A stretch of 64,000 bases of DNA from Polytrichum commune (taxonomy: Eukaryota > Streptophyta > Polytrichopsida > Polytrichales > Polytrichaceae): positions 53,997,169 through 54,061,168 of the forward strand of contig OX485806.1 of assembly GCA_950295325.1 (NCBI GenBank), given 5' to 3'. A program made the position numbers and the translations under genes. This document shows, in pieces, positions 695 to 64,000 of this stretch. The notes under the pieces were generated by a model, which ran no database searches, was not told where the DNA came from, and saw nothing but the letters and a program-made list of their open reading frames with translations. Within the stretch, counting starts at the first letter, position 1. Every line of letters starts with the position of its first letter.

Positions 695-700
695 AGCACA

Positions 701-935: not shown

Positions 936-1030
936 TTGGATAATAATAACATTGTCTAAACTATTGGAATGAGATAAATTGTTATGGAAACAATTTTGAA
1001 AAATAATATCAACAAAATTTGTATCAAACA

Positions 1031-1740: not shown

Positions 1741-2361
1741 CTCAAAACCTTGACAAAGTGTTTTAGGTGGTAGCGGTGGTTAATGCAATTTACAAATGAA
1801 CCGTTGTCCAATAAAGGTGTTGGATTCAATTACGCCCAAAAAAAGGTGGAGCGGAAAAAAACCTTTTATTACACACATGTGTGTGTATGGATGTGAAGCC
1901 TATGCAATGATGTCGGATGAAAAAATGGGTTAGTTCAATGCAAATGGCCAAAAAAATTTGTTTTTGGGCTATTATGAAGGAATTAATGTGTTTCTACGAA
2001 CGTCTTAGACTCATTGAGTCTACTAAAGGCTAATGCCTTTATACAATTTTATTTTTTTTAAATATATAGATGTGATATTCATGGAGTATGATACGAGCCT
2101 TAGAAATGCTTTGGAGATGTGTCCAAGTGGGAGAAATAAAAGCCCTACAACAATTGTTGTGGATAGATCTTCCAAGTCATCTTCATGTGATAATGGTGAG
2201 GAGCGCAAGGAGCAAATATGATATTACTTGATTGCAAATGAGGAGGCAATCAAAATTCATGTGAAAAATGATGGCCACGTCAAGAGATATTATATGAGGG
2301 AGCGGTGTCTACCTGGTAGAAAAACCACATTCTACCCCAACATGGCAAAGAACATGCCAAT

Positions 2362-15932: not shown

Positions 15933-15981
<49 letters not shown>

Positions 15982-23128: not shown

Positions 23129-23181
23129 TGTGGCACTTTTGGGCCACCCCCTTTTGAGGGAGCCTAAAAGTGCCACACAAG
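23126..23181. repeat. Terminal hairpin of dispersed repeat copy A
   Basis: CTTGTGTGGCACTTTTGGG and CCTAAAAGTGCCACACAAG form near-perfect arms around a C-rich loop. The equivalent in copy B (60704-60755) is conserved but has compensating and non-compensating changes in the arms (GGTAC against GTATC). Confidence 0.8.
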
Positions 23182-45181: not shown

Positions 45182-46065
45182 TTAGAACATTCCCGGCGCA
45201 GACTCGTCGTCCACGTGGGTATTGTCCTCGTCCTTGGTTGGAACCTCCGGTTGAAACTCTTTGACCTGGGAACCGTTCACCCTCGTCCCCAACCAGTTCC
45301 CTTGTAGGTCCTCCAGTTGGAGTGATCCATTCTCAGACATTTCCGCTACCCGGTACGGACCCATCCACCGGGTGTGCAGTTTACCCGGGAACTGTTCGTG
45401 CTGGTTATCGTAGAGTAATACCAGTCTGCCCTGCTGAATTTTGTGACTCCGTGGTAACTTAGCATCAAACTTCTCCTTCTGGTTGGCTTGGACGGAAACA
45501 GTCCGCTAGAGGGCCTTTGTACGGGCTTCCTCTAAGTCCTGGAGAGCGACCATCCCAAACCCCGGATCTTCCGTGCAGCCCTTCCGGTAGGCCATGACCC
45601 GTAAGGTTTCTACCTCCAGTTCTACCCCATGCACAACCTCCTGCCCGAATACCAGGAAGAATGGGTTTTGTCCGGTGGTCTTCTTCTCGGAGGTGTTGTA
45701 GACGTGGACGGCCGAAGGCAGCTTCCGGTCCCAATCCGTCTTGTGGGCGGAAACCATTTTGTTCAAAATTTTGCCGACGATTCCGTTAGCCCTCTCCATC
45801 AGCCCGTTGGCTTTTGGATTGTACGGCGTCGTCTTCCGGTGCTTGATCAGGTACTTGGAAGTGATGTTAAAAATAACATCATTAAGGAAGTGTTTTCCGC
45901 GGTCACTTACCAACTCGAGTGGATGTCCGGACCGCATCATAATCTCCTCGAAGATAAATGATGCCGCCGTCAAAGCATCGTTCTTCATGGTTGCACGGGC
46001 CTCCATCCACTTAGTAGCATAATCAGTGGCAAGGATGATGTATCTTCTCTTCCGTGCACTCATGG
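45182..46065 (-). pseudogene. Gypsy integrase catalytic core and C-terminal tail
   Basis: The frame 46063-45506 (185 codons, no stop) has the integrase core: TDYATKWMEA (first Asp), LVSDRGKHF (second Asp) and NGLMERANG (Glu), with exactly 35 residues between the second Asp and the Glu. HVYNTSEKKTTGQNPFFLVF follows. After one stop the reading continues to 45182 with QQGRLVLLYDNQ, GKLHTRWMGPYRV and a terminal LEDLQGNWLGTRVNGSQVK, the usual gypsy integrase C-terminal domain. The catalytic triad is intact, but the N-terminal part is cut off by the 1497-bp insertion. Confidence 0.9.
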
Positions 46066-47562
46066 CATGAGCCCAAAATGAGTGCTCATATTGGTTTTAT
46101 GTTTAGAATTTATTTAGAATTGCATTTGGAGTGTTATTGAAACAATCAAAAGTATAAAAAAAAGTGAGGCTTGGTTTGGTTTATGTTTTAGGCCTTAAGC
46201 CCATTTTGTGTGGTTAATTAGAGGCTTAGTGACATTAAGGAGTATTTGGTTAGGTGTGTAGTATTTGATGAAGCAAGGGGAAGGGCCTTGGACTTTAATG
46301 TTTGAATTAGAACATGCTCTTGTTGGTTTAGAGGGTGAGGATTTAGTGGATAGGATAAGGTCCTACTAAGTAGGAGAAGGTTAAGGGGCTTGTGGTCTTG
46401 GGTGCCCTCTCCTCCTCCTCCTCTCTTCTCTTCATTTTCTCTCTCTTCTTCCTCTTCTTCCTCTCTCTCTCTCTCTCCCCCTCTTCTCTAGGATTTTGAG
46501 CTCTTAGAGCTAGAAAAAAATGTGTAATTAGTAAGGGGGTATTAGGGAAATTAGTGGAATTAGGTAGGAAAATTAGGTAGGGGGCTTTGGGGAATTAGTG
46601 GGATTAGGTAGAGGACCGAATGTGGGATTTGAAGGCAGTTGGTCTAAGGGCCTGAATCTGGTTGAGGCAACTGGTCTAAGACCGAATGGGGATTTGAAGG
46701 CAGTTGGTCTAAGGGCCTGAATCTAGTTAAAGGCAACTGGTTAGGACCGAATGGAGGATTTGAAGGTGGCTGGGCTAAGGGCATGAATCTGGTTGAGGCA
46801 GCTGGTCTAAGACCGAATGTGGGATTTGAAGGCAGTTGGTCTAAGGGCCTGAATCTGGTTCGAGGCAGCTGGTTAGGACCGAATGGAGGATTTGAAGGTG
46901 GTTGGGCTAAGGGCCTGAATCTGGTTGAGGCAGCTGGTCTAAGACCGAATGTGGGATTTGAAGGCAGTTGGTCTAAGGGCTTGAATCTGGTTCGAGGCAG
47001 CTGGTTAGGACCGCATGGAGGATTCGAAGGTGGCTGGGCTAAGGGCCTAAATCTGGTTCAAGGCAGCTGGTTAGGACTGAATGGAGGATTTGAAGGTGGT
47101 TGGGCTAAGGGCCTGAATCTGGTTGAGGCAGCTGGTTAGGACCGAATGTGGGATTTGACGGTGGCTGGCTAAGGGGTGAGACCAAAGTGGTGTAGGGGGG
47201 AGGAACTAATGGTATCTACTAGCTTATGTTTAGTTAGTAAATTAGTTATTACATAATATTTATTTAGGTAGATAGCTCATTAGCAAGTTAGGTGAACACC
47301 GGCATTAGCAGGTGGTATTAGGGGGTGGACTTGTGGTTGTGTTGTGTGGAATTGTAAGGGAGGGAGTCAATAGTGCCATAATAGAAAAGAGTGTTTCTTA
47401 ACACTTGTAATCTTGTTGTGGAATAAATTGGGGTACCTACCAATGATGTGAGATGCAATGGAAGTTAATGGCATTGGGATGATTTAGCTAGGCTAGCATG
47501 AATGTGATCCCCATGCCTTCACCTGGACTAGGATGCTTAAGTATGGGTGGTTTGGCCTCACA
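46066..47562 (-). mobile_element. 1497-bp LTR-like insertion with minisatellite
   Basis: It interrupts the integrase reading after FVGPIDP. A perfect 5-bp duplication CATGG flanks it (46061-46065 and 47563-47567). On the minus strand it opens TGTGAGGCCAAA and its far end is the near-complement (CATGAGCCCAAA read inward), so the expected CA end appears mutated. It contains a CT-rich tract (46405-46490) and a tandem array, and no protein of its own. Confidence 0.8.
46610..47185. repeat. Minisatellite, ~65-70 bp unit
   Basis: About eight units of GACCGAATG(T/G)(G/A)GGATTTGAAGG, then TGG(T/G)CTAAGGGCCTGAATCTGGTT and AGGCAGCTGGT. The 118-codon ORF at 46783-47139 (repeating GFEGGWAKGLNLV) is produced by the repeat and is not a gene. 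Confidence 0.9.
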
Positions 47563-47567
47563 CATGG

Positions 47568-48098
47568 GATCGATGGGACCGACAAAATTGATTCCCCACT
47601 TCTCGAACGATGCTAATGGTATGATGGGTGTTAACGGCCAGTGATTGCGGAATGATGGTGCTCCAATACGTTGGCATTGGTCACATCTTCCAATGAAATC
47701 CTTCACATCTCGGTTGATGTACAGCCACCAGTATCCGGATGACCGGATCCGGTTGATCGTGGTGACGGCTGCAAAATGGCCTCCTGACAAACCCCATGCA
47801 GCGCCCTCACGACTTGTTTCCTCTACGACTTCTCGAGACAGCGCCTGAGTTAGTCATCCGGCCCCATCCGGAAAAGGATCCCTTTGATCAAGGTGAAGGG
47901 AACTACCTTGGTCTGGAACACCATCTTCTCCTCTCGCGACATTCCGGTTGGATATTTTTTCCCTGTGAGATATCCAATGATATCCTCAAACTTGGAAGGC
48001 TCTCTTCCGGAGAGGTGGAAGACTGGTGCTTCTTCCGGGAACTTCTCCGGAACCTTCTCCGGAACCTCATCCGGAAACTCATCCGGAACTGGTGACAC
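47568..48098 (-). pseudogene. Gypsy linker and integrase zinc-finger region
   Basis: From 48098 the reading is Glu/Pro-rich (PDEVPEKVPEKFPEE), then FHLSGREPSKFEDIIGYL and FTLIKGILFRMGPDD, a stop, and a segment with LSGGHFAAVTTINRIRSSGY, IGRCDQCQR and WGINFVGPIDP near 47580. GGHF and CxxC are the ligand positions of the HHCC finger; the second His is not evident. The reading stops at the 1497-bp insertion. The Pro-Glu repeat is longer than in most gypsy linkers. Confidence 0.85.
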
Positions 48099-48125
48099 AA
48101 TGTTCGAGACTACTTCTGGGCCTCT

Positions 48126-48675
48126 CTAACGAGACAAGTAGTTTGCATTGGAATTGGTTTTTCCGGGTTTTACCACAACCTCGTAATTGAACTCCTGGAG
48201 TAGAAGGATCCACCTGGCAATCCGTCCAGAAAGATTCGGTTTATTTACCATGTACTTTAGGGAATCGTGATCAGTATGAAACACGATCCGGTAACCCAGT
48301 AGATAATGCCGGAACTTTTTACAGGCGTATACCACGGCCAGTACTTCTCTCTCCGTGGTGGTGTAATTCCGCTCCGTAGGACTCATCTGCCGGCTGGCAT
48401 AGTAAATGGGTTTCTCCCTCCGGTCCTCCTGATATTACCATAGTATGGCCCCGAGGCACCATCCGGAAGCGTCGAGGGTGACGTGGAATTCCCGCTCCCA
48501 ATCCGGCGAAGATAAAACCGGTGCCGTAGTCAAAGCTTTCTTTAGCTCCTCAAATGCCTCGTGCCTCCGATCCGTCCAGACGAAGTCCGTTTCCCTTTTT
48601 AGAAGTTCCGTCAGGGGCGTAGCTACCTTAGCATAGCAGATTATGAATCTCCAGTAGTATCCCACGCACCCAAGG
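48126..48675 (-). pseudogene. Gypsy RT connection and RNase H
   Basis: The minus reading resumes directly next to solo LTR copy 4 with GCVGYYWRFI, then LTELLKRETDFVWTD, FEELKKALTTAPVLSSPDW, FHVTLDASGWCLGAIL (first RNase H Asp), YTTTEREVLAVVYACKKFRH (catalytic Glu) and FHTDHDSLKYM (second Asp). It ends near NANYLSR. One frame change near 48430 separates two open stretches. The RNase H acidic residues seen are conserved. Confidence 0.9.
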
Positions 48676-49639
48676 TGTTGCGCACCTCTCCATGAGGAAT
48701 GCCCGAAACACCATGGGCACAAAGGGGACCCTGGAGTGACACCCGTGACTTCTGGCGCCGTTGGTGAGAGGGCCCAAGTGATCCTAGTGTGGGCGAGGGC
48801 CCCGGGCGTTGGGAACGCCTCCCACCCACGGAGACTAAGAGGCACAAGGGTAAGGCCAACAGCTATGCGTAGCTCATGGCGTGGTGATTCTAGAATGCTC
48901 AAGAACACCTCAATCGAAGGTGTGAGCTAGGAGTTATGGCAATTTGAGTGGGGCGCTGTCCCGGGACAGCGCCCTGGTACAGCAGTGCCTGGGAGTGATT
49001 CCCGGGCCTGACAAGGTTCAAACAGGCATTACTTCCCCAAGACTTGCCCAAATGGGGCAAGTAAGGAGTTCATCGGTATCTACGTGAAGCGTAGATGAGG
49101 ATGGAGTGGTTGGTTTTTGGAATCAAGGAAGTTATGATGGTCTGAAGCTGCTAGGGGTTTCTAGGCCCAGCAGCTAAGGGAAAATGTCTACTTGGCCCCA
49201 ACTCTTGGTAGAGAGACAAGAGGTCTCTTGACAGTGGGGTAGGGGCCCTGCGTAGAGTCCTAGAGGCTTATATGGGTGAGGTGGTGTGGCCTCACCCATC
49301 CGAGGCCGAACGGCACAGCCTCCATGGGCATTGGCCCAATGTGAGGCCATAGTTGCCTAGTATGGTTTGGGTTGTTGTCGTATTGCTCCGGCAACGCGAT
49401 GATCAACATGGGATTGGATTTCCATGGACGGAAGTCCACATCTAGGAATGGGTTACCGATTAAGGGGTGAGTCCCAAAAGAGCAAAGTAGGAGAGTTGGT
49501 TCCCTCCTATGAACTATATGGTCCGGGGTAGGAGGAGCTAACCATTGGCATGGCGGAATGCGAAGGGTTAGCGCTCGTAACCTTTGCTAGAATTAAAAAT
49601 TGGCAAGATTGTCAAGGGGGGTTAGCAAGGGTTGCGACA
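48676..49639 (+). mobile_element. Solo LTR, family 'TGTCGC', copy 4
   Basis: 964 bp, opening TGTTGCGCACCTCTCC and closing GGGTTGCGACA, with a perfect duplication CAAGG (48671-48675 and 49640-49644). It lies between the RT thumb (TTVREVWGFL) and GCVGYYWRFI, which join when it is removed. Confidence 0.93.
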
Positions 49640-50055
49640 CAAGGAATCCCCAAACTTCCCGGACCGTCGTGGGAGCTAAAATAGCTAAAATAACTCTGAC
49701 TCTGTCCGAGTCTACCTCTAATCCCTGATTACTGACCACATGTCCTAGTAGGACCCCGGATTCCATCCCTAGGAAGCATTTCCCGGGTGTAATTTTAATC
49801 TGGTTTCTCGGCATCGTTGAAAGGTCTTCCGGAGGAACTGGTGGTGTTCCATCCGAAGACTAAAAACTGCAAAGTCATCTATAAATACCTCTAGGAAGTG
49901 TCTTAAGAAATCCTTAAAAATATCCATCATGAGTCTTTGGAACGTACCGGGAGCGTTGCACAGTCCGAAGGCCATCCGGTTAAAGGCGAACGTTCCCCAC
50001 TCGGTGGTGAAAGTCGTCTTTAGTTGGTCTCCTTTCTGGATGAAGACCTGGTTGT
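49640..50055 (-). pseudogene. Gypsy reverse transcriptase, C-terminal half
   Basis: From the 50056 boundary the minus reading runs NQVFIQKGDQLKTTFTTEWG, FAFNRMAFGLCNAPGTFQRL, then VFIDDFAVFS with the catalytic Asp-Asp intact, and continues with PGKCFLGMESGVLLGHVVS and REVWGFL. One frame change occurs near 49800. The upstream half lies beyond the 2848-bp insertion. Confidence 0.92.
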
Positions 50056-50672
50056 TGTGGGAGCCCAATATTCTACGAAAATACGGAAATATGGAAATAC
50101 GGATCCATTTTCCATATTTTACCCTGCTCATATAGGGATAATAGGGTCTCTTAGGTTAAAATTAAATATACTAGGAAATAAGGCGTTCTAAATCCGCCTC
50201 GCACGATAAAAATGACAAAAAGGGGTATTATTACCGGTCCGGCAAAATGGATTAAGGGAGACCGTTTGATCAATGGTCCGGACCGCTGGTCCGGACCTAG
50301 TAATGGTTACGCCAAGATTAACCAACGGTCCGGAAATGGCGATTACAACAGACTTATGACAGTTGGGGGAAAACCGTCGAAAAACGGTTGGCAACCGTTT
50401 TCCGTTAAACACTAACGATAACAGGGGGAAGGATATTTAAGGGTCCCTTCCTTCTCCTCCCCACTTTTTGCAAGAAAAAAAAAATTGTTGAGAGATTGAG
50501 TGGTGAGGCTGTTTTTTTGTCCGAGCCGCCAGCAATTGGATTGCTGGGACTCCGTAATTTCTAGTCACCGGCAGTTGGCTTGCCGGGACTCCGTAGCAGT
50601 TGAGCGGAAGAGAGGGAATCCGGAGGGGAGAGAATTTCCGTGGTTGAGACCGAAGTTGGGAGAAGTAGGAAA

Positions 50673-51540
50673 ATGCTGGAAGCACGGGAAGAGGATCGAA
50701 GGGAACCCATCCCGGTTCCGCTCAAAGCCCTCATCCCTGCAATTCCGAGGGAGGATGGGGAGCTGCAGGAGCTAGCGGAGGATCTTCGGGTTATGGGTTG
50801 CGCGGGGTTGCTCCCCAAACCTTGGAACCTCCGAGCGGAAGATACCCTCCGGGAGTTCAAGTTCGAGAGAGGTAATCAGTGGCTATGGACCAAGAGGAAG
50901 GATCCAGATAGTTGGACTCCAGATGTTTGGAATAGGGTCTACGGGTTTCCGAGGGGAATTGCAGAGGGATGGCCGGCCGTCGCGATGGCCTGTTCGCCGG
51001 AAAGTTTAGAGGGGACGCGGACCCGAAGGACAGCTTCCACCCCGGGAACTGCCGGAACCTTAGAGAGCGGAGAGTATTAGAGTTCCTCCTGCCCATCCTT
51101 AACCCAGACAAGCCTAAGCGGATTAGCCTTACCATGGTTAACACCCTGTTTGGTGCTATGTCCAGAGTCCGGCCCGTGAATTGGGGGTTGATAATTCAAG
51201 AAAAAGCAGGGCGGGCCCTCCCCCATATAGGCCGGAAACCCTCCTTCCTCTCCCCCTTCATTATGCACCTCTATCAGCACTTTGACTGCATCACGGCCGA
51301 GGAGGAGGACATGCTGACGATTGCAGCGGATGAGGTCACCTACAAGCTCCATCCAGGTTCCGAAACACCGCGGACCGAAGGAGCAGCGGACTAGGAGGAT
51401 GAGATTGCCCCTTCCCCAAACATGAGGAGGATGCTTACACGGCTACAGAAGGCCTCGCCGGGAGGGGGTTCATCCGCCGTCAGTGGACTCGGCAGCCATT
51501 CGAAGGAGGGAGCAGCTCAGAAGAAGCACCGCTCTTCTTA
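50673..51540 (+). pseudogene. LTR-encoded ORF, second copy (coiled coil deleted)
   Basis: Begins MLEAREEDRREPIPV at 50673 and continues MGCAGLLPKPWNLRAEDTL and WTPDVWNRVYGFPRG. It changes frame near 50970 (DGLFAGKFRGDADPK, HPGNCRN), then RPVNWGLIIQE, HIGRKPSFLSPFIMHLYQH and EEEDMLTIAADEV. A TAG near 51393 precedes EDEIAPSPNMRRML and the KKHRSS end at 51540. Compared with the copy at 44613-41532 the coiled-coil and Pro/Arg segment is missing. Both copies keep the same reading over most of the core, suggesting past protein-level constraint. Confidence 0.75.
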
Positions 51541-51739
51541 GCTTAAGATGGTAGTTAGATTAGTTAGGCAGAATAGAGGTAGGAAGATAGGACTTAGGAG
51601 TTTTTGAAGATGAGGAATAAAATTTTCCCTTGGGTTTTGTCAGCGGAAAATCCGGATCTTGATCCGGGAAATCCGGGAGGTCGGAAGCAGTTAGGGTTTT
51701 CTTAGCGGCGGCCGCCTGGGCCGCCGCCCTCAGGTTAGG

Positions 51740-51830
51740 GATTTTGGGCCTCTACTTAAGGCTGAATAAGGAGTTGGAGAAGGGTTTCTTCTCCATTGTT
51801 GTATTTTGATTGCTCCTACTCTAATAAACT
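51740..51830 (+). promoter_or_regulatory. Putative LTR promoter / poly(A) region
   Basis: TACTTAAGGCTGAATAAGGAG followed by TCTAATAAACTC is conserved between this LTR and the 3' LTR (minus, about 41309-41233). It would put the U3/R boundary after the ORF, so the ORF is in U3. The assignment rests on conservation and position only. Confidence 0.4.
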
Positions 51831-52908
51831 CTTTGATCTCTCACTCCTTGACTGTCCTTGCTTGATTTTGCATACGAATGATTCTGATATTGTTAGCGGA
51901 GAAGAGAGAGCATGAGGGGATAGGAGTTCCGGATAGGGCATAGAAGAGGAGAACCGGATCAGAACTAGTTATTGCCTTGCGGATCCTCTCTGTGTGTAGT
52001 GGGAGGGAAACCTCACTATTCCGAATGGTTGAGTAACGTCTAGGTGGGATAGCCGCTGGGAGGATTGGGTGAGATCCGGAAGGGATCCGGACTTACGCCA
52101 ATCTGATCTTCTGAAGAGGTCCCACCGCCCTTAGATGGACCAATCCGGAAAGTGGTACGGATCGCCCAGTTAGCTCGGATTGAGTACAGTCCAAGGTAGT
52201 GGTAGCCGGATCGATCCATCGGAAGGAGGCGGGAAGGACCAGAACAGTTAGGATTCCGGGTCGGAGGCCATCTCCGGAGAGTAGTGGGGAGGAGACCTCA
52301 TTGTTTCGGATGTCTGGGTAACGTCTAGGTGAGATAGCCGTGGGGAGGACTGGGTAAAGATCCGAAAGGGATCTGGACTTGCGCCAATCTGATCTTCTGA
52401 AGAGGTCTCACCGCTTGTGGACGGGACAATCCGGAAAATGGTACGGATCACCCACTTATCCCGTCGAATCATATCTCCGGGTGGAATCTGGAATACTCCG
52501 ATCGTTGTAGCCCTAAGACATAACCCAGATCTCCCTGTGTGACCTGCCAAAACGGATTTGGCCAATCCGGATTGGTTGTGAGGGAATATCCGGATCCTAA
52601 CCTTATAAGGGACGCCTTCACCGGAAGAAACCACCTATTCTAGAGGGTAGAACGTAGAGGGATAAATCTGGATCATAGGGGTGAGTAAGTATTATAATTA
52701 GGACCTAGAGATACAATCTGGAAAGGCAAATTCTGGGGGTTTCCGGAAATTCGGCTAAGGAGTGGAAAATAAGTGAGTACGGGGAGTTCCCAACCTCCTA
52801 CACTTCACAGAATCCCTAGACAATACTAGGGTCATCCGGACAAAACCGGATTAGGCACTTAAAAACGCCAATCCGGATATTTTGGTGTTCGTGTGTCCCC
52901 ACAGTTGT

Positions 52909-53137
52909 ATCCGGAAAATTTGTCTAGGAAGCTATAGCACTCATATCCGGAGACATGATCTAGAATGATATCCGTGAATGGTAGAGGGAAATAGTCATTT
53001 TTCGTAGCTGCATTCAACTTCCGGAAATCCTGGCAGACCAAGATCTTCACTTTCCTATCCGCCCCGACCTTCTTGGGCACGACAACAATGGGGGAGACCC
53101 ATTCGGAGTTGCTCACCGGATAGATGAAGCCAACCTT
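52909..53137 (-). pseudogene. Gypsy reverse transcriptase, N-terminal half
   Basis: Minus reading: KVGFIYPVSNSEWVSPIVVV, PKKVGADRKVKI, VCQDFRKLNAATKNDYFPLP, DHVSGYECYSFLDKFSGYN. The first catalytic Asp (FLDxFSGY) is present. It is open up to both bounding insertions. Confidence 0.92.
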
Positions 53138-53141
53138 CAGA

Positions 53142-54221
53142 CATGGGGAGGCCACTCAGTAGGATTTTTGTGTACTACGTGTGGCGGAGGGATATTTGTT
53201 TAGGGGCTATTTCCCTCCAAGGCACAAATTAAAAGCTTCCTATAATTACATAATATTCTAAAATGGCCTATTTTTTTGTACCCTACCATTACTTATAATG
53301 CCCATGTCATTGAAATTTTTTGTAGTTTATATTCCTTTTAATTAAAAAAACTGAATTTAAGAATGTATGCAATGCAAAAGTGATGGGAAAAGGATGGCAA
53401 CAAAAAAATATAAAAATTACGTACCATTGCAAAAACCAAGTACAAAAACTTAAAGTGAAAATACAAAAAGAAGACTTAGGATGGAACACAACATGATTGA
53501 GTGTGTGTTTACAAACACAACAAGATTGTGTGTGTGTTCACAAACACAACACCCGCTCCATAAAAATCCTTTATTCAAAATCACTTTACATGCTAGTGAA
53601 GACCAAAACCATATAGTGTGAAACACTTTAAGCTTGGTCATAAATCTTATATAGTTCGTTCTGTCACAAACTTGGATAGTTGCTCTGAATCATTCCTATC
53701 AAGAGTGTACACCTCATTTGTAGAATTGTAGCTCATGGTTACCGTAGATATAATGCAATCTACATCAATCCATTTGCTATCCGTGTGATCATACTTAAAT
53801 TTGTTACGGCCTGGATATTTTCTATAATATTGCAACATTACTTCGATGTGGGAATTATTAGGATTTCTCCTCCTTGATTCTTCCGTTCGAGCAAGGAGGT
53901 CAACCGCTTGCCAAAGTACTCCAAATTGTTTCCCATTGCGCCGCCGCATAGCCTGCACCCTACCCACCCACCATGAATTGGAATCTACTCCGTTCAATAT
54001 GTTAGTAGCATTTCCAACTTTAACATCTGTCATTGAACGTCCCCTTTTTTGTTTGGCAGCGGATTTTATAATTGACAATAGTATTGTTGTGCTCCGTTAT
54101 GTACTTTTAATGGACCCTTCATTATTTGGAATTCTTTTATAATTTTTATGTCAAATGATTTTAATCCTCCCTATATTATGCCGCACGTCGTTTTTAAAAT
54201 GCACTAGGTGACCTCCCCGTG
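53142..54221 (-). mobile_element. 1080-bp TIR element, 'CACGGGG' family, member 1
   Basis: Ends CATGGGGAGGCCACTCAGT (left) and CACGGGGAGGTCACCTAGT (right, inverted). Partial matching (ACGTG(T/C)GGC) extends to about 50 bp. A perfect 8-bp duplication CCTTCAGA occurs at 53134-53141 and 54222-54229. Eight-base duplications and CA-GGG ends suggest hAT, but the TIR is not a textbook hAT end. It carries a 143-codon ORF on the minus strand and no transposase. Confidence 0.9.
53647..54078 (-). CDS. Uncharacterised 143-codon ORF inside the TIR element
   Basis: The frame is intact from Met to stop. It has a basic N-terminus (SAAKQKRGRSM), then SWWVGRVQAMRRRNGKQFGV, a hydrophilic stretch, EVMLQYYRKYPGRNKFKYDH, SKWIDVDCIISTVTMSYNS and VYTLDRNDSEQLSKFV. 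The aromatic-rich WWVGRV / KWIDV pattern is loosely like small beta-barrel readers (BAH- or Tudor-like), but no family is recognised with confidence. It fills 40 percent of a 1080-bp non-autonomous element, so it is either a captured host fragment or an element gene. Expression is unknown. Confidence 0.45.
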   Translation of the reverse strand: MSIIKSAAKQKRGRSMTDVKVGNATNILNGVDSNSWWVGRVQAMRRRNGKQFGVLWQAVDLLARTEESRRRNPNNSHIEVMLQYYRKYPGRNKFKYDHTDSKWIDVDCIISTVTMSYNSTNEVYTLDRNDSEQLSKFVTERTI

Positions 54222-54444
54222 CCTTCAGAAGGCTGTCAATTTCCTCTTTCACCATCAGTGAATACTTTGGATTCAACCGGTATTGCCTTTGCTTTTCCGG
54301 GGCGGATCCGTCAATGAGGTCGATGTGGTGTTGTCCTAGTTCGGGAGGGATGCCTCGTAAGTCAGCCGGACCCCATGCAAATACGTCTGAGTATTCCAAT
54401 CCAAGGCCCTTACCTACACTAAACCCACCTACTTTGGGACTCAC
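54222..54444 (-). pseudogene. Gypsy RT leader segment
   Basis: The minus reading has LEYSDVFAWGPADLRGIPPE, HHIDLIDGSAPEKQRQYRLN and VKEEIDSLLK. This is the usual segment just before the RT palm, joining KVGFIYPVSN once the TIR element is removed. Upstream of 54444 homology stops in a poly-C run, so the element is truncated there. Confidence 0.88.
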
Positions 54445-55249
54445 TTGGGTTGCCCCTTCTTTGCCCCCCCCCCCCGTTAGGCTCCATTAACCTAACATGA
54501 CACATCTAGGTGAGACCTCAACGCTTCCACTAAGTTGTCTCGGTTGCAACCCCGAGATGGCTTTCCATTGTTAAGCCACGCCTCGATCGCACAGGGGTGA
54601 TGCCAAGTCCCGCCCGACTCGGTTCCCACTTTGCTTTTTCGAGACATGGGTTCATGACTCCCATGCGCCAACTCGCGTTAGCTCGCGGGTAGCACTTTTA
54701 TGAGCACACGCCATCACCTTGCCCCGCTCGGACAAACCCAAGGCTAAGAAGTTTCTCGGTTTTATCCAAGGCCCCTCCTAGCCATGGCCCCCAATTACTC
54801 GGCTTACCCAACCTAGTTTGGCATGTCTATTCCCCTTCTTCCACTAACCAAGCACAAGTACAAGACTAGGACCTCCTCACAAGCACAAGACTAAGACTAG
54901 TTTGGTGCTTCAGGCACTCCTCATGGAAAGGTGCGCGAAGGTTAGAGGAGGGACAACGGACACAATGGAGGCCTCCCGGCATCTAAACATTACTAGGGCA
55001 AGGTAATATACTGAGACCTCCCAGTTCGGGTCGATCGACCCAAACTTCTAGGGTCATTATCTTGTTGGCGTGGTTGTGTCCCCCTAGCTAGGAGGAACTA
55101 CACCCCCACCCCTAACCCCATGCCCATCACTTGTGCCCTTCGTGCCCCCCGCAATCCCTCTGTCTCCCTACGCCCGAGTACGCTCGACCTTGGTGGCCGC
55201 CTAAGACCCAATTTTCGGTGTTAAACTTCAACGGGGTCCTTGTCTAGTG
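54445..55249. other. No gene recognised; contains an LTR scrap
   Basis: GC-rich compared with the AT-rich flanks, beginning with a poly-C run (54465-54477). At 54901-54940 a 40-base piece matches the 5' end of the 'TGTCGC' LTR in inverted orientation (GGCACTCCTCATGGAAAGGTG). The rest has no recognisable protein. Confidence 0.5.
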
Positions 55250-55429: not shown

Positions 55430-56058
55430 CTAGACAGTTGTGGAGTTCATCTTCAAGGGCCTCCAACCCCCTTGTTTGGTCCTAGGATAGAAATTTTGTA
55501 GAATGTTATACACCCCCACGGCAGGGTTGTCAGGAAACCCAATAGCCCTACCGTAAATCAATATCTTAAGGTCTTGAAGCCAATTGTATGGGACCAGCAT
55601 CCCACTATGGTCGGTTGTCCCACTCGTGACAACACGCTCATGGTGGATGACAATGCTTCCAGAATAATTTTGAATCCGCCCTCCAACTTCATAGTTTGCC
55701 CTACGTGGACATCCGAGAAAGTCCAAAACTGCTTTGTCACATTATGCGGCGTCGGTGACCACACCGCGTCCGGAGGGATTTCATCCATTTGGATATGGAT
55801 GGATGAAACCCTTGGTTTTGTGGAGATGCTCCTAGGTGAGGAATCTCCTCCTTGGCTTGGCATTCTTGCCAAGTCAAGTGTTGTGAGTGAGTGTGTGGAG
55901 AGAGCTTGTGGGAGGTGAAGATTGCATGTGTTTGCAATAAATCTTGAGTTCTTCTCCATTTTTCTACACTCTTGGATTCTCCCGTGGTGGAGTGAAAGAT
56001 AGCTTGATTCATTGTGTGCTTTTGAAAAGAGATTAGAGCTCTTATGAGTGTTTGACAT
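55430..56058 (-). pseudogene. Unclassified minus-strand coding-like segment
   Basis: Two overlapping frames (56058-55558 and 55726-55430) can be read as one protein with a frame change near 55690: MDEIPPDAVWSPTPHNVTKQ, FWTFSDVHVGQTMKLEGG, then IQNYSGSIVIHHERVV, MLVPYNWLQDLKILIYGRAI and NPAVGVYNILQNFYPRTKQ. The composition looks coding, yet I recognise no family. It may be part of a retroelement or a decayed host gene. Confidence 0.3.
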
Positions 56059-56540
56059 TTTTCCTTCTCACTTGGCAAGAATGCTTCATTTTTCTATTTT
56101 TGTCTCTTTTCTTCTTGATTCTTGAGATTTAACGCGCAAGGGGGCACGTGGGGGCAAGGAGCGACAAAATTCCGGAGTTTTGGAGCGGAGAAAGCTGCGG
56201 ATTGTTGAAGCAACAAGAAGAATTTTTTTTTTGTGAATGTCACATCAAGTTGAAGTGTGGTGAGAAATCTTTGATTTTTTCACGGAATTTCATGTTATTT
56301 GCTTGTGGAGTTGTGATTCTAAGTGGACGAAACTTTGAATCAAATACACAAAAGGGGGGGGGGAATCCTCTGAGAGCCGGAGCCCCCCGGCTCTTCCATG
56401 GCCCGGCGTCTACCGGCTGCAGGGCGGGCAACAGTATGTAGCTGTTGTACCTTTGTTCACAGTGTCGTCATCCGGCATCCAACCCGCTAAGGTTTTTCAC
56501 CTAGCAAGTAGGATTTTGGAAGGAAAGGCACCCCATCTTC
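56059..56540. other. Leader-like region before the protease reading, nothing recognised
   Basis: No clear ORF. There is a G run at 56355-56363 and a GC-rich patch (56370-56430). It could be the 5' part of the protease-methyltransferase element, but no LTR end or primer-binding site was identified. Confidence 0.35.
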
Positions 56541-56547
56541 TTTGACT

Positions 56548-57062
56548 GTGGCTCAAGCCAACGATGACCTTCTTATCACGGAGGATCCGGAGGAAGCGGC
56601 TAGACGACAAGCGAGGCTTGCAGCAGAGGCCATTTCGTCTTTTGACGCACACGCCTTGGATGACCAAGAACCCACCTCATCTTATGATTCATCAGCCTCC
56701 GCGGGCGCAACTTATCTTCAGGTGTAGCTGCTCGACATGCTCGCGAGCATCGAGGCATTCGACCTAGCGTGGTACATATATTGAATGATTCTGGCATTTT
56801 GGTGGTCAGTCAGGCTAGGGCAACCCTATTTGAGTTGCTCCCCGATGTGTGATGATGGATTCGGGAGCACAACCTATTATGATCGGCAAAAAACTTGCAC
56901 AAGAATTGCAGTTGACAGCCGATGACTTGGCTCCTTGCCCATTCACCATCGTCACATCGGTTGGCCACGTGGAGCGGGCCACAGGCTATACGCGGGAGCC
57001 ATTACAGCTTAGTTTCCGCGCAAAACCTGGAGATCCACGTGCACCTCTTCTTCTTCGGTGTG
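56548..57062 (+). pseudogene. Retroviral-type aspartic protease, N-terminal part
   Basis: An Ala/Arg/Asp-rich segment (EDPEEAARRQARLAAEA) comes first. After frame changes, HILNDSGILVVSQARATLFE leads, with a 1-base shift at 56850, into VMMDSGAQPIMIGKKLAQEL, where Asp-Ser-Gly-Ala is the catalytic motif. PCPFTIVTSVGHVERATGYT and LLLRC follow. The fold continues after the insertion with a TNYHILVG segment (59636-59687), equivalent to the closing hydrophobic-hydrophobic-Gly strand. Frameshifts before the active site make it a pseudogene, though the catalytic residues remain. Confidence 0.8.
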
Positions 57063-59635
57063 TGTAGTAAGGTTTTTAGGGTAGGGTTCAAACTCTGAAA
57101 AACCCCAGGGAAGACCAAATGAGTGTCAAATGTATCTCTAGTTTGTCATGATAAGGCACGTGATAAGGTTAATTGATAGGTTAAAACGTTTATGGAATGC
57201 TTTTGATAGTCAATTAATTTAAATTTTACTTCCTCATTTGCACTTGGTTATCACTTGTTAGGCTTAATTAACTTATAAAGAGTAAATTACTCAGCCCCAA
57301 TTTTATATCTCATGAACATTGATAAAAACTCTTAGTGCTCATAAATAAATTATCATGCTCTTATATTTAACAAAAGTCTAGTAACGAGTGACGGGAACCG
57401 AGTCTGAGCGAACGAGTCTTAAAGCGTGCGAACCGGCCTAGGATAGTGACACGAGTCTAGTAGCGAGTATCGAGTCAAAAGTCTAGAGTCCAAAGTCACG
57501 AGTAGACAGCGTAATCACAAGTGCCAAGTAGACAGTCTTAGTTCCAAGTAACAAGTCTAGTCACCAGTAACCAATAGCGAGTCTTGTTGTATCATGGGAA
57601 GCGTCTGGACACATTAGCCACTGTGGAGGGATAGGTTTTATACCTGCCCTTATGATAACTCCCAATCGATATGGGATAAAGGGGCGCTCAGCTCCCGCAC
57701 GCAGCTCCTTCCTCTCTCGCGATTCCATCTACGCTTTTCGACTCTCTGGAGAACTTCACAGGGCCGATTCGCTCGTCCACCTTCTCTTTCGCGTTTGCTA
57801 CTACAATCACATCAATTCCATGGTCCCAAGCTCCTCCTTTTTCACATAGCTCGCTCGCAACTGAAATCTTGAGGTGATCTCCTCGAAATTGGTAAGGCAA
57901 TGTTTATCAATCACAAAGGCTACTTCAAAATCTGCTACCGAATCAGACACATCGTCTTCGCTCGGCGAATTTGCAGGACTGTTCTCTCCGTCCTTCCTTA
58001 GCTTATATTTGCTAACACAATCTGATAGAATCCTCGGCGACAGGTTATTTCTTCGATGAGGTTACAGGGGATAATGAGGGTCGAAACTCACTTTCTCTCG
58101 ATCAACGAAGGCAAGGGCTACCAATCAGGCTTGCTCGCATCACACCTTACTCAAAGCTTCCAGGGAATCTCTCCATTCGCTCTCCAGGTGTACGAAAGAG
58201 ACATTTTCCACATTCCTAGATCAGATAAGTTTATATTCCGAACACATTGGCACGCATAACAAATCTCACCTCCTTTCACAGGGGTGACGCAAAATTTCTG
58301 TTCATATTTCTCACACTCTACAGGGAACTCGAAGGAGTACAATTCCCTACTTTCTCAACAAGAATCAAGTATTTATTTCTCTTATCTCTCAATTTAACCT
58401 TACTGGCGAGTAGTGTAGACTTTGAAGTTTCAGAAGTTGGTTAAAGTTTTTGTCCGTTTCTTCCCTCAATAACTAGCTCTAAGGGTTGTGAACAGTTTAT
58501 AACATTAAACAAAATCAATTAGCTCCTTTCACAGGTTTCAGCCTCGAAGACTACACTCGTACTTAGATTCGACCACTTTATGACTTTCTACACATCAAGT
58601 TTCTTCAGAAGAATTATGTGAGATCACTTCCGTGTGCAGGTGATTCTTTATCTCCTCTTACAGATCTCGCAAGAGTAATTTATGGATCAACCCACAGTGG
58701 AATTTCCCATTCCCCTTATGCGGTATTGTCATGAACAGTAATATTAGATTTGAGACACTTCAACTGTTTCACACAATTTAACTCTTAACACATGCTTACA
58801 ACAGTAAGTCACAATTGGGAAATTAGAACTACACTAATTTGTGCCAAGATATCTCTTTTCAAGAATTCACAATTAGATCCAGAGTTTCACACTCCATCCC
58901 GGTAACTGATATACTTACAGAAGTTAAGATCACACCACAAAGTACTTACTTCTCTTCACAAGAGTAGTATATTAAAATTGCTCACTGGATTCTTCCCAAA
59001 CCCCAAGGGCTTTCACTTCCCACACATTAACTTCATCTTTAGAATTCAGAATCTTAAGAGACTGTCCAAGAAATTATGGACTAAACTGTTCTTAATACAC
59101 ACATGAAACTCCCACAGATTTCTACTCACAAGGGTCACATTACCCGGACACATTCCAATCAACAACAATATTCCCAATTTCACATTCACCACTCACTGAG
59201 AAAGGATTTGATAATTGCACTTTGTATTGATATATTCCGAAAGATGATGTACAATAAAATTAAGGGTTTCACACCCTGTAATTGGGAGAATTGACAAAAC
59301 AGCATTCACTCTCTTCACGAGAGGAAGTTCAAAATTACAATGCTCTCCTCTTTGTCCTCTTCCTCCTCCTTCTTATCTTTCTGTCCCCAAAAGGTGGTGA
59401 CTGACTGTAGCTAGGATACCAAGTGCTACTTCTAATTGTCACATGTGAATTCCATGCCTCCTGATATCCTCTAGACTATGGGCAACAAAGAAAATTCTGA
59501 TTTCCTGGCCCGTTTCCCTTTCCAAGCAACTAATTGCCTAATGTTTCACTATTTGACTAATCTTGAGTAAAAATTATCATTCATTTACATTTCAAGACTA
59601 AAATTTAGGCATTCTGTCCAAAAAATGGTACCACA
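57063..59635 (+). mobile_element. 2573-bp TG..CA insertion (solo-LTR-like)
   Basis: Opens TGTAGTAAGG and closes GGTACCACA, with TGT(A/G)GTA inverted ends. A perfect duplication GTGTG lies at 57058-57062 and 59636-59640. Removal joins LLLRC to AVTDATNYHILVG in frame. There is no pol, and only short ORFs. A CGAGTC/AAGTC-rich degenerate repeat occurs at 57370-57590. Orientation is not determined. Confidence 0.85.
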
Positions 59636-60304
59636 GTGTGCGGTGACGGATGCGACCAACTATCACATTTTAGTTGGTTAGCAAGCACTTTACCCTCTTG
59701 GTTTTGGTTTGGACAATTCGACTGAGGAGGCGTGGATCCGACTAGGTTGGTCGGCTGGGGATGGCCGTAGGGAACTTATTCATGTGGCGTTCGCGGCGGC
59801 CGCTACCATAGCACCCTTATGCATGGTTTTTGGATGTGGTGTTATTGTTGACACATTGCCCTATGGGTCCGCATTATTAGAGGAATCGTTGGCATTTATG
59901 GGGAGTGCTGAGGATCATCGAGAGATGGCACCTCACAATACATTGGTGCGTCATTTCCGGGATCCTCATCCTCCTTGGCACAATTCCCCGAGCTATTCCG
60001 GCGATGTGAGGACATTGTCTTTTCTTTCGCCTCTACGACACCGGTCATACCTAATAGCCCATCGGCGTTGGCACACCCCATTTTGTGGTGCCCGTCAAAC
60101 GCAAGGATCACTTTGGTGGAATTGTTTGGGGCATCGGGACGGGCTTAGCGGCCATATTGGAGGTTGGCCTCATGGTCATACGGTATGTCTATGTGGACAC
60201 CTCACAAGTTTCCACCCTTGTAGCTCGTCACCATCTTCACCAGTTGATGGTATTGTACCCACATCATTTATAGCCGACTGGCATTCATGGGTGTTTCTTA
60301 CGTC
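59636..60304 (+). pseudogene. Protease end, linker and methyltransferase N-terminal part
   Basis: After TNYHILVG and a TAG stop (near 59680) comes QALYPLGFGLDNSTEEAWIR, then LGWSAGDGRRELIHVAFAAA, an open stretch to about 60000, and a change of frame. ITLVELFG (60107-60130) and, one base out of frame, GIGTGLAAILEVGL (60130-60171) make methyltransferase motif I, the AdoMet-binding Phe-x-Gly-x-Gly loop. RYVYVDTSQVSTLVARHHLH follows as motif II, with the acidic residue after the second strand. The reading meets a TAG at 60271 and ends at the TIR element. The frameshift inside motif I looks like loss of one G. Confidence 0.8.
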
Positions 60305-63300
60305 CACGGGGAGGTCACTTCATTGTCCAGTTAACACCACGTGCGGACAAAGTTTGCTACCCCTATATTACATGCCATATATAATTTTAAAATTTATGAT
60401 ATTTTTTCTGTATATACATAACCATTGATAGTATATTTTGTATATTTTTTTGAAATTTTTAGTCATCTTTATTTTTTAGTAATTTTTTTAGTTCAATTAT
60501 GTGTCATTATAGTTAGAAACAATATATTTTATGAAAAAAACAAATCATCAAATTTAATTACTACTTTTAACTATGTCATAGATACTGTGTATATTTATTC
60601 ATGAAAACAAATTGGTAAAATTTTGACCCATTTTAGTGGTGCAACTTACCAAAAGAAGATTTTTTTTGGTCGCACGTGGTGTTCAACTTGACAATGAAGT
60701 GATTGTGGTACTTTTGGGCCACCCCCTTTCGAAGGAGCCTAAAAGTATCACACAAGCCCTTCGGTGAAGGTGGCCTGCATTTGCAGGCGCCCAAGCCGAA
60801 CCCGGATGATAGGTGTATAACGTGAGTAGTTAGATTTTTAAGGGAGATTAAATATGCGTCGTAGTACCTCCGGAGGTTAGGCCTTAGTTTTTTACTAGTG
60901 TGGCTTTAAACTCCACTAACCAATTTCATATCTAGTTCTAACCTTAACCTACAACCTATTCTACGCGCAGACGCACCAGCCTTGAAACCAAGGCAATCCT
61001 AATTTGTGAATTGGGATGGTTCTGATACACCCAACCGGGTGTGACTCATACCACCCTAACTCAACGAACGGAATAACGACAATTTGATGGACCATTCAAT
61101 TCTTCCTATTTCTTTATTTAGTTCTATTTAGTTTTCTAAGCGGGGGAACTTGGCCTAAGTCCCACCCTTCACACAAATTCCTTCTTAATTACTTACTTTT
61201 GTTTGCACGTCCTAACTCACTACATTAACATATTAGGCATCACCCCTTACCTCGGGTCTCTTGCCAACAAGGGTTTACGATTTATTTTGTATGTTTTGAT
61301 TGTTAAATGTGTTTACACTGGATAGACCACGAAATGCAACTCAATGGGACCAGGGTGACGGGCGACCTGTAGGTTCAACCTGTTGCGCAATCTTCATAAA
61401 TTGGGGCCATTACTCCCAATCTATGGGGCCAACAACATAATAGTGGATTCGCGGGTCATTAACCCCACCTTTCCACCAACAACATTCAGAGTGGTCGTGT
61501 CGGTGATTAATCCGACTTACCACACACGAAACTTGCTAATAAATGAAGCTACTACCACAAAACATACCAAGGGCCCCGAAAACAATGCAATTGGGTACTC
61601 CCTTGGCGGTCAAGTGGTCAAGCCACTTGACCTTACGAGGTAGGTGAGTGGGTTTAGAGATGCGTACCTTAGCCGTGCTCCCTCCAATCCTAAATGGAAG
61701 GCTTAAGGTTAGTTAATTTACCTCAATTTTCCTCGGTTGATTTAGGCTTGATGTAGGCCGAGCCGCTACCTCCTTCCTTGCTCCACTTTCCGAGCGTCGA
61801 CCTTGCCTCCTTCTTTGTAACTAGTTTGGTAGTAAGCGTACCTTAGTTAACAATTAAAATATAAAGTGTTATTCTTCCCTGTAATTTAATCCTAAGCATA
61901 ATATTTATACTTAGTGCACCAAATTATCTTTCCAATGATCTAAAAATCACTCTAATCGGATAAGAAATGCAAAAGTTATGAGGGTTGGAAGTGTGAGGTC
62001 GATTCAACCAACCCTTCCAACCCACCTATCTACCTTCTAACTTCAAAAATTCATAGCACATTCCTTACTACTTGGATCTAGGCTTTCCTTATACCATTGG
62101 AAAGCTATGAACAAGCTCTAACTAGAAAAATTATGACATCAGCAGGTTAAGCTAATAGAAATTCAGCGGACTCCTTGTAACACAGCAGTCAATCAAGAAG
62201 GCTTAAACTATGTATCTCGCCTTCAACAATTCATATCTAATTCAAATCTTAGTCAAATCAAACGTTCTATATGACCCTGCAGAGATATTAAAAAGATGTA
62301 TTTGATAAAAATATGTGATCAGAAAGGTAAGCCGAAGTGAACCCAGCAGGTCCTCTGTAATGCAGCAGTCAACCAAAAGTTCTCAAACTATGTGTCCCAT
62401 CTTCCACAATTCATATCTAATTCAAATCATGCTCAAATCAAATGTTCTAAGCCATTTTGGAAAGCTACACAAAAGTTCTACTTGGAAAAAATATAATTTC
62501 TTGGAATTAAAATTCCTATTGGGCTCGCAGGTCTGATCCAGCAGCCGCTACCCACAAGACCACCCAGTTTTTCTACTCCATCTTTGAAAATCCATAACTA
62601 ATTGTCATCTCAACCAAATCACAAATGGGAAACGGCTATGGATAGCTATATGAAATCTCTCTAAGAGAAAAATGATAAGTATCTTGTTCTAGCTTTTGAA
62701 CTAAGCCTTCAGGGCATTGGCAGATGAGGTCTATAATGCCTCTACTCAAAACTCTACCGTCCAACCTACCTCTACAAAAGAAGGAATAATTTTGTTGGTG
62801 TGTTAATAAACACACAACCTAACTAGGAGAGAGAGAGTAGAGGAGGTTCTCAAGCCTTTCTTTTAGACCATTGAGAATACATGCTAAAGGATTTTTTCCT
62901 AACTACATTGAAGCAGGGCTTCGCCCAAAAACTAGAGAAAGAGAGAGAGCTACAAGGTGGAAGGAGGAGTTTTTAAACCCTCTCACAAAAGGGTTGGACC
63001 CCTCCTCCACCGGATCCATTTTTCAAACCCTTTCCCGAAATTTTGGCTCGGGGGTTTTCCCGGTTAAGGTTGCCACCCTCTCGCCGAGGTGGCTCCGACA
63101 AAAAACCTTTAGAAATCTTTCTAATTTTTCCGCCATCGAGTTGGCAAGGGGGCAAGTGGACAAGTATCCCCCTTGCTCTCTTTCTTTTTTGTCTTCAAAA
63201 TTCTTCACGCCGATTTTATCTTCTTACGTAAAACACCTCCAATAGTCTTGTGTGCCTCACACTAACTAATAAACTAACACTTGCTTAGCTAGCATCTACT

Positions 63301-63556
63301 AACATTTGCTTAATAACTACCATCTACTAATATTTGCTTAGCTAGTTGTTTTTACTAGCTAGCACATTTTTTCTACTTTGCTATCTTCTAGCACTACTTA
63401 GTTTCATTTTGACCTTCCTTCTTCTAGGCTAAATGCTAAATGAACTAATTTTTCCTAAATTCCCTATCAATTCTAACTTTTAATGCTAACATTCTAACTA
63501 AAAGTGATCCCGCAGAGTGGTGGACCACTCAAAGGGTTCACAGTGATCTCCCCGTG
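60305..63556 (+). mobile_element. 3252-bp TIR element, 'CACGGGG' family, member 2
   Basis: Left end CACGGGGAGGTCACTT, right end complement CACGGGGAGATCACTG, matching member 1 at 53142-54221. Flanks CTTACGTC (60297-60304) and TTCACGTC (63557-63564) are an 8-bp duplication with two mismatches, so this is older than member 1. Most of it is dispersed repeat copy B, probably a secondary insertion. No transposase was found. Confidence 0.8.
60704..63295 (+). repeat. Dispersed 2.6-kb repeat, copy B
   Basis: Homologous to 23129-25900 from the terminal hairpin (GTGGTACTTTTGGGCC ... CCTAAAAGTATCAC) to the AACACCTCCA / CTTGCTTAGCTAGC ending. Internal segments differ by several hundred bases of indels. 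It lies inside TIR element member 2. The GGTCTGATCCAGCAGCC block (62532) recurs in copy A near 25129. Confidence 0.75.
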
Positions 63557-64000
63557 TTCACGTCTCCCTCGTGATGTCACATTTACGACACTTAGGTCCG
63601 GTGGATATGGTGATTGCGGGATGGCCATGCCAAGGCCACTCACATGCTGGAGCATGCCGAGGTTTAGAAAATCCCAGGTCTAGCCTTTTTTGGGACCTCA
63701 TCCGGCTGATGCAGTGGTGGTTTACCCACCAACCTTCCCCTCCAGGGTATATCTTCGAGAATGTACCTTTGTTGGAAGACTCTCGTGACAAGGTGTTGGA
63801 AGGCGTTCATTATGTTTGTCAACACCTTGGAGATCCCATTTTTGTGGATGCCACGAGCATTGGTTCTTATGCCCAACGGCCTCGGTGGATTTGGACCAAC
63901 CTCGCATCGTCATCTACTTTAACTGCAAAATTATCTGTAGTGCCTCCACCTTCTAGTCAGAAGGTGGATGACATCTTGAATCCAAACCGGGTCTCTTTGC
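63557..64000 (+). pseudogene. C5-cytosine DNA methyltransferase, catalytic part, continuing past the window
   Basis: A frame from ATG 63574 to the window end (142 codons, no stop) reads LGPVDMVIAGWPCQGHSHAG, with Pro-Cys-Gln at 63625-63633 (motif IV, catalytic Cys). It then has GLENPRSSLFWDLIRLMQWW, YIFENVPLLED with Glu-Asn-Val at 63757-63765 (motif VI), DPIFVDATSIGSYAQRPRWI with Gln-x-Arg-x-Arg at 63874 (motif VIII) and WTNL. Order I-II-IV-VI-VIII is canonical, unlike the rearranged plant DRM enzymes. Right of the TIR element, before the ATG, CSRLPRDVTF is in another frame, so there is a frameshift near 63585. The C-terminal target-recognition region and motifs IX-X are outside. It would transfer a methyl group to cytosine C5. 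Confidence 0.82.

Follow-up and report, generated by a model that had tools for sequence, protein, structure and literature searches.

A 64,000-nucleotide stretch of the land plant Polytrichum commune (contig OX485806.1 of assembly GCA_950295325.1, forward strand, positions 53,997,169 to 54,061,168), referred to here as the window, carries pieces of an aspartic protease and of a C5-cytosine methyltransferase on its + strand at 56.5-64 kb, and these are parts of one interrupted polyprotein. The picture that emerged from our analysis, to which we assign a probability of about 0.8, is that the window holds a decayed and twice-interrupted copy of a land-plant retrotransposon family with Gypsy-type domains and a captured DNMT3-type cytosine-5 DNA methyltransferase (DNMT). 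Three lines of evidence are laid out below: the anatomy of the copy, uninterrupted fusions in the same genome and in other public sequences, and the reverse transcriptase (RT), RNase H (RH) and integrase (IN) that follow the methyltransferase.

Anatomy of the window copy

The 5' end of the element is marked by a remnant of terminal repeat A, which begins with TGTCAC at 55735..56018 (+) and was recognized by DNA matches to repeat A of a copy elsewhere in the genome (52 bp at 90% and 65 bp at 78% identity) and to the same region of the public contig L029 (see below). Next comes the end of the Gag region at 56478..56811 (+), with 77.5% DNA identity to positions 158-493 of L078, a paralogue without interruptions at the two insertion sites, and with tblastn matches to relatives; the remainder of Gag was not found in the window copy. 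The first part of the protease with its DSGA active site lies at 56821..57062 (+; 82.6% DNA identity to L078 2226-2467; weak matches to Pfam gag-asp_proteas and Asp_protease_2), its end (YxILVG) and a linker at 59636..60139 (+; tblastn, and 83% DNA identity to L078 2463-3133 over 59636-60304), motifs I-II of the DNMT3-like methyltransferase at 60130..60304 (+; tblastn to relatives and L078), and motifs IV (PCQ), VI (ENV) and VIII at 63557..64000 (+; 84% DNA identity to L078 3126-4200 over 63557-64587). The last piece matched Pfam DNA_methylase (PF00145) with E=2e-12 on 63547-63999, the protease piece alone gave E-values of 0.002-0.004, under the curated cut-offs, and two further window pieces gave no Pfam match.

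When L078 was compared with the window by tblastn, matches were obtained for the protease at 56822-57061 (84% identity), for the protease end and linker up to 59987 (72%; the reported start at 59571 runs into the first insert, the DNA match beginning at 59636), for the linker at 59990-60139 (70%), for the motif I region at 60130-60330 (72%) and for the methyltransferase at 63550-64572 (68%). These pieces scored 72-426 bits, and the top of 200 shuffled queries scored 27.7 bits. All 19 protein relatives described below produced colinear + strand matches at 56.5-57.06, 59.63-60.33 and 63.55-64.0 kb. The motifs listed in an initial annotation of this DNA are thus all present, on the + strand and in the order it had given, and one of them has to be renamed: motif VIII, which had been read as QxRxR, is AQRPRW in the window copy; most relatives have AHRPRW, which corresponds to the HRxR of DNMT3 enzymes and not to the bacterial QxRxR.

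The boundaries of the two inserts were derived from a comparison of window pieces with L078, the inserts being left in place. Insert 1 (57063..59635, no strand assigned; empty site in L078) is of the long terminal repeat (LTR) type, measures 2,573 bp, has TG...CA ends and is flanked by the 5-bp target duplication GTGTG at 57058-57062 and 59636-59640; a second copy of it was not found in the window or the following 20 kb. Insert 2 (60305..63556, no strand assigned) measures 3,252 bp and was delimited by the empty site in L078 and by comparison of its flanks and of its ~15-bp terminal inverted repeats (CACGGGGAG[G/A]TCACT), which match at 14 of the first 16 positions. Its flanks, CTTACGTC and TTCACGTC, are identical at six of eight positions (chance for a random pair 0.006, the pair having been picked post hoc), so that the second target duplication (8 bp) is imperfect. 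A repeat within insert 2 (60704-63293) has a second copy at 23129-25891 that is 66-82% identical. Both insertions that had been postulated are therefore real, and the target-site duplications claimed for them hold exactly for insert 1 and imperfectly for insert 2.

The copy also exceeds the limits first given for it (56548..64000): that start was too late, as shown by the Gag tail from 56478 and repeat A from ~55735, and that end is only the edge of the window. In the 20 kb downstream (L038 and L039), the methyltransferase runs to ~64575 in window numbering, UAG-CAGUUA follows and RT starts from 64579 (L038). The copy, with the methyltransferase C-terminus and the start of RT, extends to at least 65116. 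The first 185 Gypsy Pol residues after the stop are spread over two overlapping frames, and the RT match breaks off at an unrelated repeat rich in GATCGGGATC-like units (L038 from ~1117 on). Stops and frameshifts mark the window copy as a pseudogene. An Rfam scan of the window gave no match.

Uninterrupted fusions in the same genome and in other sequences

In L078, protease, linker and methyltransferase form a single frame of 670 amino acids (aa), the Gag region of this paralogue being interrupted elsewhere. The search space in the plant's own genome comprised 408 Mb on 64 contigs, and the best-matching candidates were scored for each query (37 of 981 for P0003, 44 of 4,166 for open reading frame (ORF) 2 and 66 of 1,187 for L078), so that all copy numbers are lower bounds and the scored copies represent the best-preserved ones. 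With P0003, at least 37 places for ORF1 of one subfamily were obtained, all aligned over nearly the whole protein and 15 of them stop-free. L078 retrieved at least 66 protease-DNMT places of the window's subfamily; 26 of the 66 are stop-free in the matched part and ten of these sit in frames of 1,360-1,372 aa, so the window's own subfamily has the fusion as well.

When the methyltransferase piece of the window was used as a protein query, 19 relatives were returned, namely ten of 1,228-1,376 aa from public contigs, five shorter ones and four from Marchantia polymorpha; alignment A1 included 13 of the 19, the tblastn comparison with the window all 19. The long relatives combine Gag with zinc knuckles, a protease (DSGA...ILVG or near), linker and methyltransferase in one frame. 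The same protease-DNMT fusion is found in annotated M. polymorpha proteins, one of which (P0016) runs on into RT and RNase H; P0017 is without DSGA and P0018 and P0019 are partial, gaps that are perhaps due to gene-model splicing. That protease and methyltransferase had been one polyprotein, as originally proposed, is borne out by these findings: the search for intact copies in the same genome, which had been recommended as a check, uncovered stop-free Gag-protease-DNMT frames of 1,356-1,386 aa and 1,360-1,372 aa, and similar proteins of 1,330-1,376 aa occur on other public contigs. The proposed retrotransposon carrier is likewise confirmed, since the frame beyond the ORF1 stop encodes RT, RNase H and integrase. 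Protease and methyltransferase did not turn up in separate elements, nor did the latter prove to be an ordinary single-copy host gene.

The contigs of the public relatives (jgi, ena and lgn sources) are presumably metagenomic. L029 (CADCWO010000201.1, 9,285 bp) is filed under a cyanobacterial metagenome-assembled genome; we take it as plant DNA because its ORF2 is 88% identical to that of this plant genome. Its two ends share 127 identical bases, from which it follows that one whole element unit is present, and ARAGORN found no tRNAs on it. P0001 is labelled Candidatus Obscuribacterales. Both records are probable contaminations of prokaryote entries. In P0083, a public protein of 281 aa, a DNMT fragment (63% identical to that of the window over 78 residues) is fused directly to integrase; this is probably an internally deleted copy.

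A putative readthrough signal between ORF1 and ORF2 and a PHD finger on the integrase

ORF1 encodes Gag with zinc knuckles, aspartic protease, linker and DNMT in one frame and ends in UAG, and ORF2 continues in the same frame in L029 and L042. Stop readthrough is a feature of the SIRE1 retrotransposon. The hexamer after UAG fits CARYYA in all 30 loci read (29 CAATCA, one CAACCA) as well as in L029 (CAATCA), the window copy (CAGTTA) and L078 (CAATTA). Relative to L029, synonymous sites of the window copy and of L042 are near saturation (proportion of synonymous differences, pS, 0.63-0.91), so the persistence of the signal is not mere inertia. In the accessible text of PMC5382211, UAG-CARYYA figures as the type I signal for readthrough in plant viruses, and from this sequence pattern we infer that the stop is probably read through in the present family.

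ORF2 of L029 encodes 1,047 aa with matches to Pfam RVT_1, RT_RNaseH, Integrase_H2C2 and rve and a C-terminal PHD finger (PF00628, E=4e-10); this finger occupies the integrase C-terminus, where no chromodomain appears in the Pfam listing of L029. All 44 ORF2 places scored in the own genome (the best 44 of 4,166) reach through the PHD finger. Among solved structures, those closest to the L029 PHD finger are from Cph2, CHD4, PHF12, UHRF1 and KDM5, and the PHD finger of ATXR5 is also in the list.

Terminal repeats and classification

Three of the four copies read at both ends have the repeat layout A-coding-B-A-B, with A of ~440 bp and B of ~105 bp. The dinucleotide GC separates the first B (B1) from the second A (A2). 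A1 and A2 are 99.3-99.6% identical in these three copies, which implies that the insertions are recent and that the family has moved recently. Elements end in TG...CA, and an exact 4-bp target duplication is present in five of six copies testable at both ends (AACG, CATC and GAAG, plus ACTT and TGGA), the sixth matching at three of four positions; ACTT and TGGA come from a set of six further copies, of which two could be tested at both ends. Duplications of 4 bp together with TG...CA ends are what a DDE integrase would leave.

With Ty3/Gypsy elements the family shares Gag and protease followed by RT, RNase H and DDE integrase (the protease mostly below the Pfam cut-off), TG...CA ends and a short (4-6 bp) target duplication. 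Two identical direct terminal LTRs are lacking, three of the four copies beginning with A1 and finishing with B1-A2-B2 in the 5' to 3' direction. The LTRs mentioned in the initial annotation are thus split repeats (A...B-A-B). An ordinary two-LTR pair was expected and not found; the split repeats account for three copies, and L040 has A and B once each. The C-terminal chromodomain on the integrase of chromoviruses, which are chromodomain Gypsy elements, is likewise missing from the Pfam matches of L029. Three of four copies have split direct repeats in the order A-coding-B-A-B, the layout of DIRS elements; DIRS elements, however, make no target duplication. According to the available text of PMC5890265, DIRS elements have a tyrosine recombinase instead of a DDE integrase; no member of the tyrosine recombinase family was found in ORF1 and ORF2 of L029 (Pfam, E up to 0.1).

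Relationship and evolution of the methyltransferase

As judged by profile and predicted fold, the methyltransferase is nearest to DNMT3, with an unrearranged motif order (I-II-IV-VI-VIII-IX/X in alignment A1). The structure prediction used 33 sequences, a six-sequence model having been discarded (mean predicted local distance difference test score, pLDDT, 31), and the outsiders in the DNMT tree were aligned fragments of DNMT3A/B/C only. The likeness to animal DNMT3A/B/C, for which structures have been solved, comprises the motif order of the catalytic domain, the profile and the predicted fold. In contrast to the animal enzymes, the catalytic loop is PCQ and not the PCN of the aligned animal chains, the domain is embedded in Gag-protease, Pfam detects no adjoining PWWP or ADD domain, and the PHD finger resides on the other part of the polyprotein.

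L042 and L029 share 59% of 1,155 aligned residues in ORF1 and 88% of 1,042 in ORF2, so that either the Gag-protease-DNMT half evolves much faster than Pol or it was exchanged between subfamilies. The proportion of nonsynonymous differences (pN) for this pair is lowest in RT, integrase and PHD finger (0.04-0.09), reaches 0.18 in protease and DNMT, and is highest, at 0.30-0.37, in gag, linker and tail. Constraint is visible between lineages and weaker among young copies.

Several observations weigh against the reading given at the outset. Stops are present in 22 of the 37 and 40 of the 66 scored places. The window copy itself does not extend to the PHD finger, which is known here from L029 and this genome only. 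The 30 loci that show the UAG signal are closely related and amount to a single lineage, and the part of ORF2 read after UAG is stop-free in 18 of them, has one or two stops in seven and 13-16 stops in five with shifted frames. L040 has the layout A-coding-B without A2-B2, which could stem from recombination between B1 and B2; this copy, which ranks first by score among the ORF1 places, has an ORF2 with a stop. Four of the 30 loci no longer carry the strict AGWPCQGH string. Finally, among own-genome copies pN/pS is 0.35 for gag, 0.42 for protease, 0.53 for DNMT and 0.77 for the linker (29 of the 30 loci, one with unequal ORF1 having been dropped; pairs more than 15% different in a domain were skipped), i.e., DNMT is less constrained than gag; decay after insertion may be responsible.

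Possible mode of action and alternative explanations

Translation would probably end at UAG in most cases, with Gag-protease-DNMT as the abundant product, and a minority of ribosomes would read through to Gag-protease-DNMT-RT-RH-IN-PHD. The protease would cleave both products. With Gag-protease-DNMT predominating over the readthrough polyprotein, the methyltransferase would be packaged with Gag and enter the particle in Gag-like amounts. What it would do there is a matter on which we are more hesitant, placing the following proposal slightly short of even odds: the enzyme might place de novo methylation on the element's cDNA or on the DNA into which it inserts, ahead of integration or as it takes place, which would make the new copy look like heterochromatin of the host; the PHD finger, for its part, might tether the integrase to histone H3 tails and thereby steer insertion. 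A single element would then bring its own writer and its own reader. For its DIRS elements, PMC5890265 suggests methylation of cDNA or insertion sites in the accessible text. Both the methylation activity and its biological role are predictions from sequence. Still more tentative, and in our estimation rather doubtful, is the full scenario of a land-plant Gypsy lineage with split repeats, a Gag-delivered DNMT3 writer, a PHD reader and tobamovirus-like readthrough that marks its own cDNA, picks silent chromatin, descends from a charophyte-alga element and has survived in mosses and liverworts from the time when land plants arose.

The simplest alternative is that there is no fused element and that nested insertion merely brought a protease fragment next to a host DNMT3 gene to which it is unrelated. 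It might be entertained from the window alone, where two inserts and several stops disrupt the copy, but is refuted by uninterrupted one-frame fusions followed by RT and integrase in many own-genome copies and on other public contigs, among them the frames of 1,360-1,372 aa at ten places without stops and the frames found with P0003; we give it practically no weight. An origin of the methyltransferase from a bacterium, phage or giant virus would agree with the PCQ loop, which is found in bacterial enzymes and differs from the PCN of the aligned animal DNMT3 chains. It would also agree with 28 viral-contig loci that match the methyltransferase part only (29-61% identity over short stretches, their own genes being unannotated) and with the absence of a host-plant DNMT3 from the homology-search matches, although the word filter of these searches misses distant relatives. 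Profile and chain alignment and the predicted fold indicate DNMT3, and we consider the microbial origin improbable.

Even a DNMT3-type domain might no longer methylate and be retained within Gag to bind nucleic acid or to serve a structural function. Its position within the Gag-level product, the fast evolution of linker and C-terminal tail and the four of 30 loci without the strict PCQ string point in this direction, whereas the conservation of motifs I, IV, VI and VIII and of the C-terminal IX/X region across lineages, despite near-saturated synonymous sites, is as an enzyme would show; such a role is unlikely, if a little less so than a microbial source. Alternatively, an active enzyme could be aimed at the host or at competitors, silencing host genes, rival transposons or DNA viruses, and not at the element's own DNA. 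An antiviral role of transposon-encoded DNA methylases is a speculation in the accessible part of PMC6338049, and an enzyme made in Gag amounts, as predicted here, would suit it. However, nothing seen here points to action away from the particle, and a PHD finger on the integrase would fit insertion-site targeting better; methylation directed at the host or at competitors appears unlikely as well, and methylation of the element's own cDNA or insertion site is preferred.

Comparison with known elements

The closest description is that of KnitGypsy-Dnmt3 from the charophyte Klebsormidium nitens, which has Gypsy-type domains, an unrearranged DNMT3 and a DIRS-like repeat layout (PMC5890265, accessible text); by comparison with this description, all three features of that lineage are present in our family. 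There the DNMT is described within the Pol polyprotein ORF, whereas here it stands with Gag and protease before the UAG-CARYYA stop (PMC5890265, same text). Further differences, established by description and not by sequence, are the land-plant genome and the integrase ending in a PHD finger. A term search of the main text of PMC5890265 for 'PHD', 'readthrough', 'gag' and 'protease' returned nothing, and no protein named as Klebsormidium was among the matches of our homology searches.

SymbioDIRS-Dnmt3 and SymbioLINE-Dnmt of Symbiodinium are also retroelements with a C5 cytosine methyltransferase, the former sharing A-coding-B-A-B repeats and a Dnmt3-type enzyme with our family, as far as the available text of PMC5890265 describes them. 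They use a tyrosine recombinase or the machinery of long interspersed nuclear elements, unlike the DDE (rve) integrase, protease and 4-bp target duplications found here. Chromoviruses also have a histone-reading module at the C-terminal end of their Gypsy integrase (PMC7466625, accessible text), but the present family has PHD instead of a chromodomain, a DNMT in addition and no ordinary LTR pairs. UAG followed by CARYYA is shared with tobamovirus-type (type I) readthrough (PMC5382211, in the part available), the signal here lying between Gag-protease-DNMT and RT-RH-IN-PHD.

In their accessible texts, PMC5890265 reports DNMT-bearing Gypsy elements from a charophyte alga, a 2025 survey (PMC12344493) mentions, for streptophytes and dinoflagellates, DNMT3 in 'LTR Copia and DIRS' elements, and PMC6338049 states that DNMT-bearing elements are absent from land plants such as tracheophytes. 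Within the open-access literature we found DNMT-bearing Gypsy elements only for a charophyte; most subscription journals lie outside this scope and an earlier notice is possible. Term searches in the accessible texts of PMC6453930, PMC9516144, PMC9033089, PMC11244446, PMC6317226 and PMC7466625 gave no passage on a DNMT-bearing element of bryophytes. As far as this literature was searched, an abundant and recently mobile land-plant family with the Gag-protease-DNMT arrangement, a readthrough signal and an integrase PHD finger is new. In view of the many better-preserved copies in this land-plant genome, DNMT-bearing elements are not confined to algae: dozens of copies, some of them recent, are present, in addition to the fusions in M. 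polymorpha. DNA methylation is a main weapon of plants against retrotransposons, and an element bringing its own DNMT3-type enzyme reverses the usual story of defence. Since some bryophytes are laboratory plants, self-marking by a transposon-borne DNMT is testable, and hypotheses about targeting and protein stoichiometry, prompted by the integrase PHD finger and the UAG-CARYYA junction, can be put to the test as well.

Other features of the window and its flank

Another Gypsy element, 29-34% identical to L029 ORF2, occupies 45509-54486 (-). Three related copies of ~980 bp at 38.0-39.0, 42.0-43.0 and 48.7-49.6 kb are 89-91% identical and may represent the LTR of this element or an inserted repeat. 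A minisatellite at 46612-47175 consists of 8.6 copies of a 66-bp unit with a higher-order period of 132 bp and has open frames on both strands. Downstream, L038 6656-8302 contains a different Gypsy element (29% identity to L029 ORF2). Going by their translated text alone, frames at 320-3015 (+) and 30874-31440 (-) resemble fragments of a Copia pol and a tnp2-like transposase of CACTA type. The region 9899-19371 (+) holds a host gene made up of several long frames that look like exons, with stretches rich in glutamine; the 7,966 candidates with the most words in common were scored for it, the named matches (five of 12 listed) are all from Sphagnum, with 44% identity at best, and we presume that it resembles TIME FOR COFFEE.

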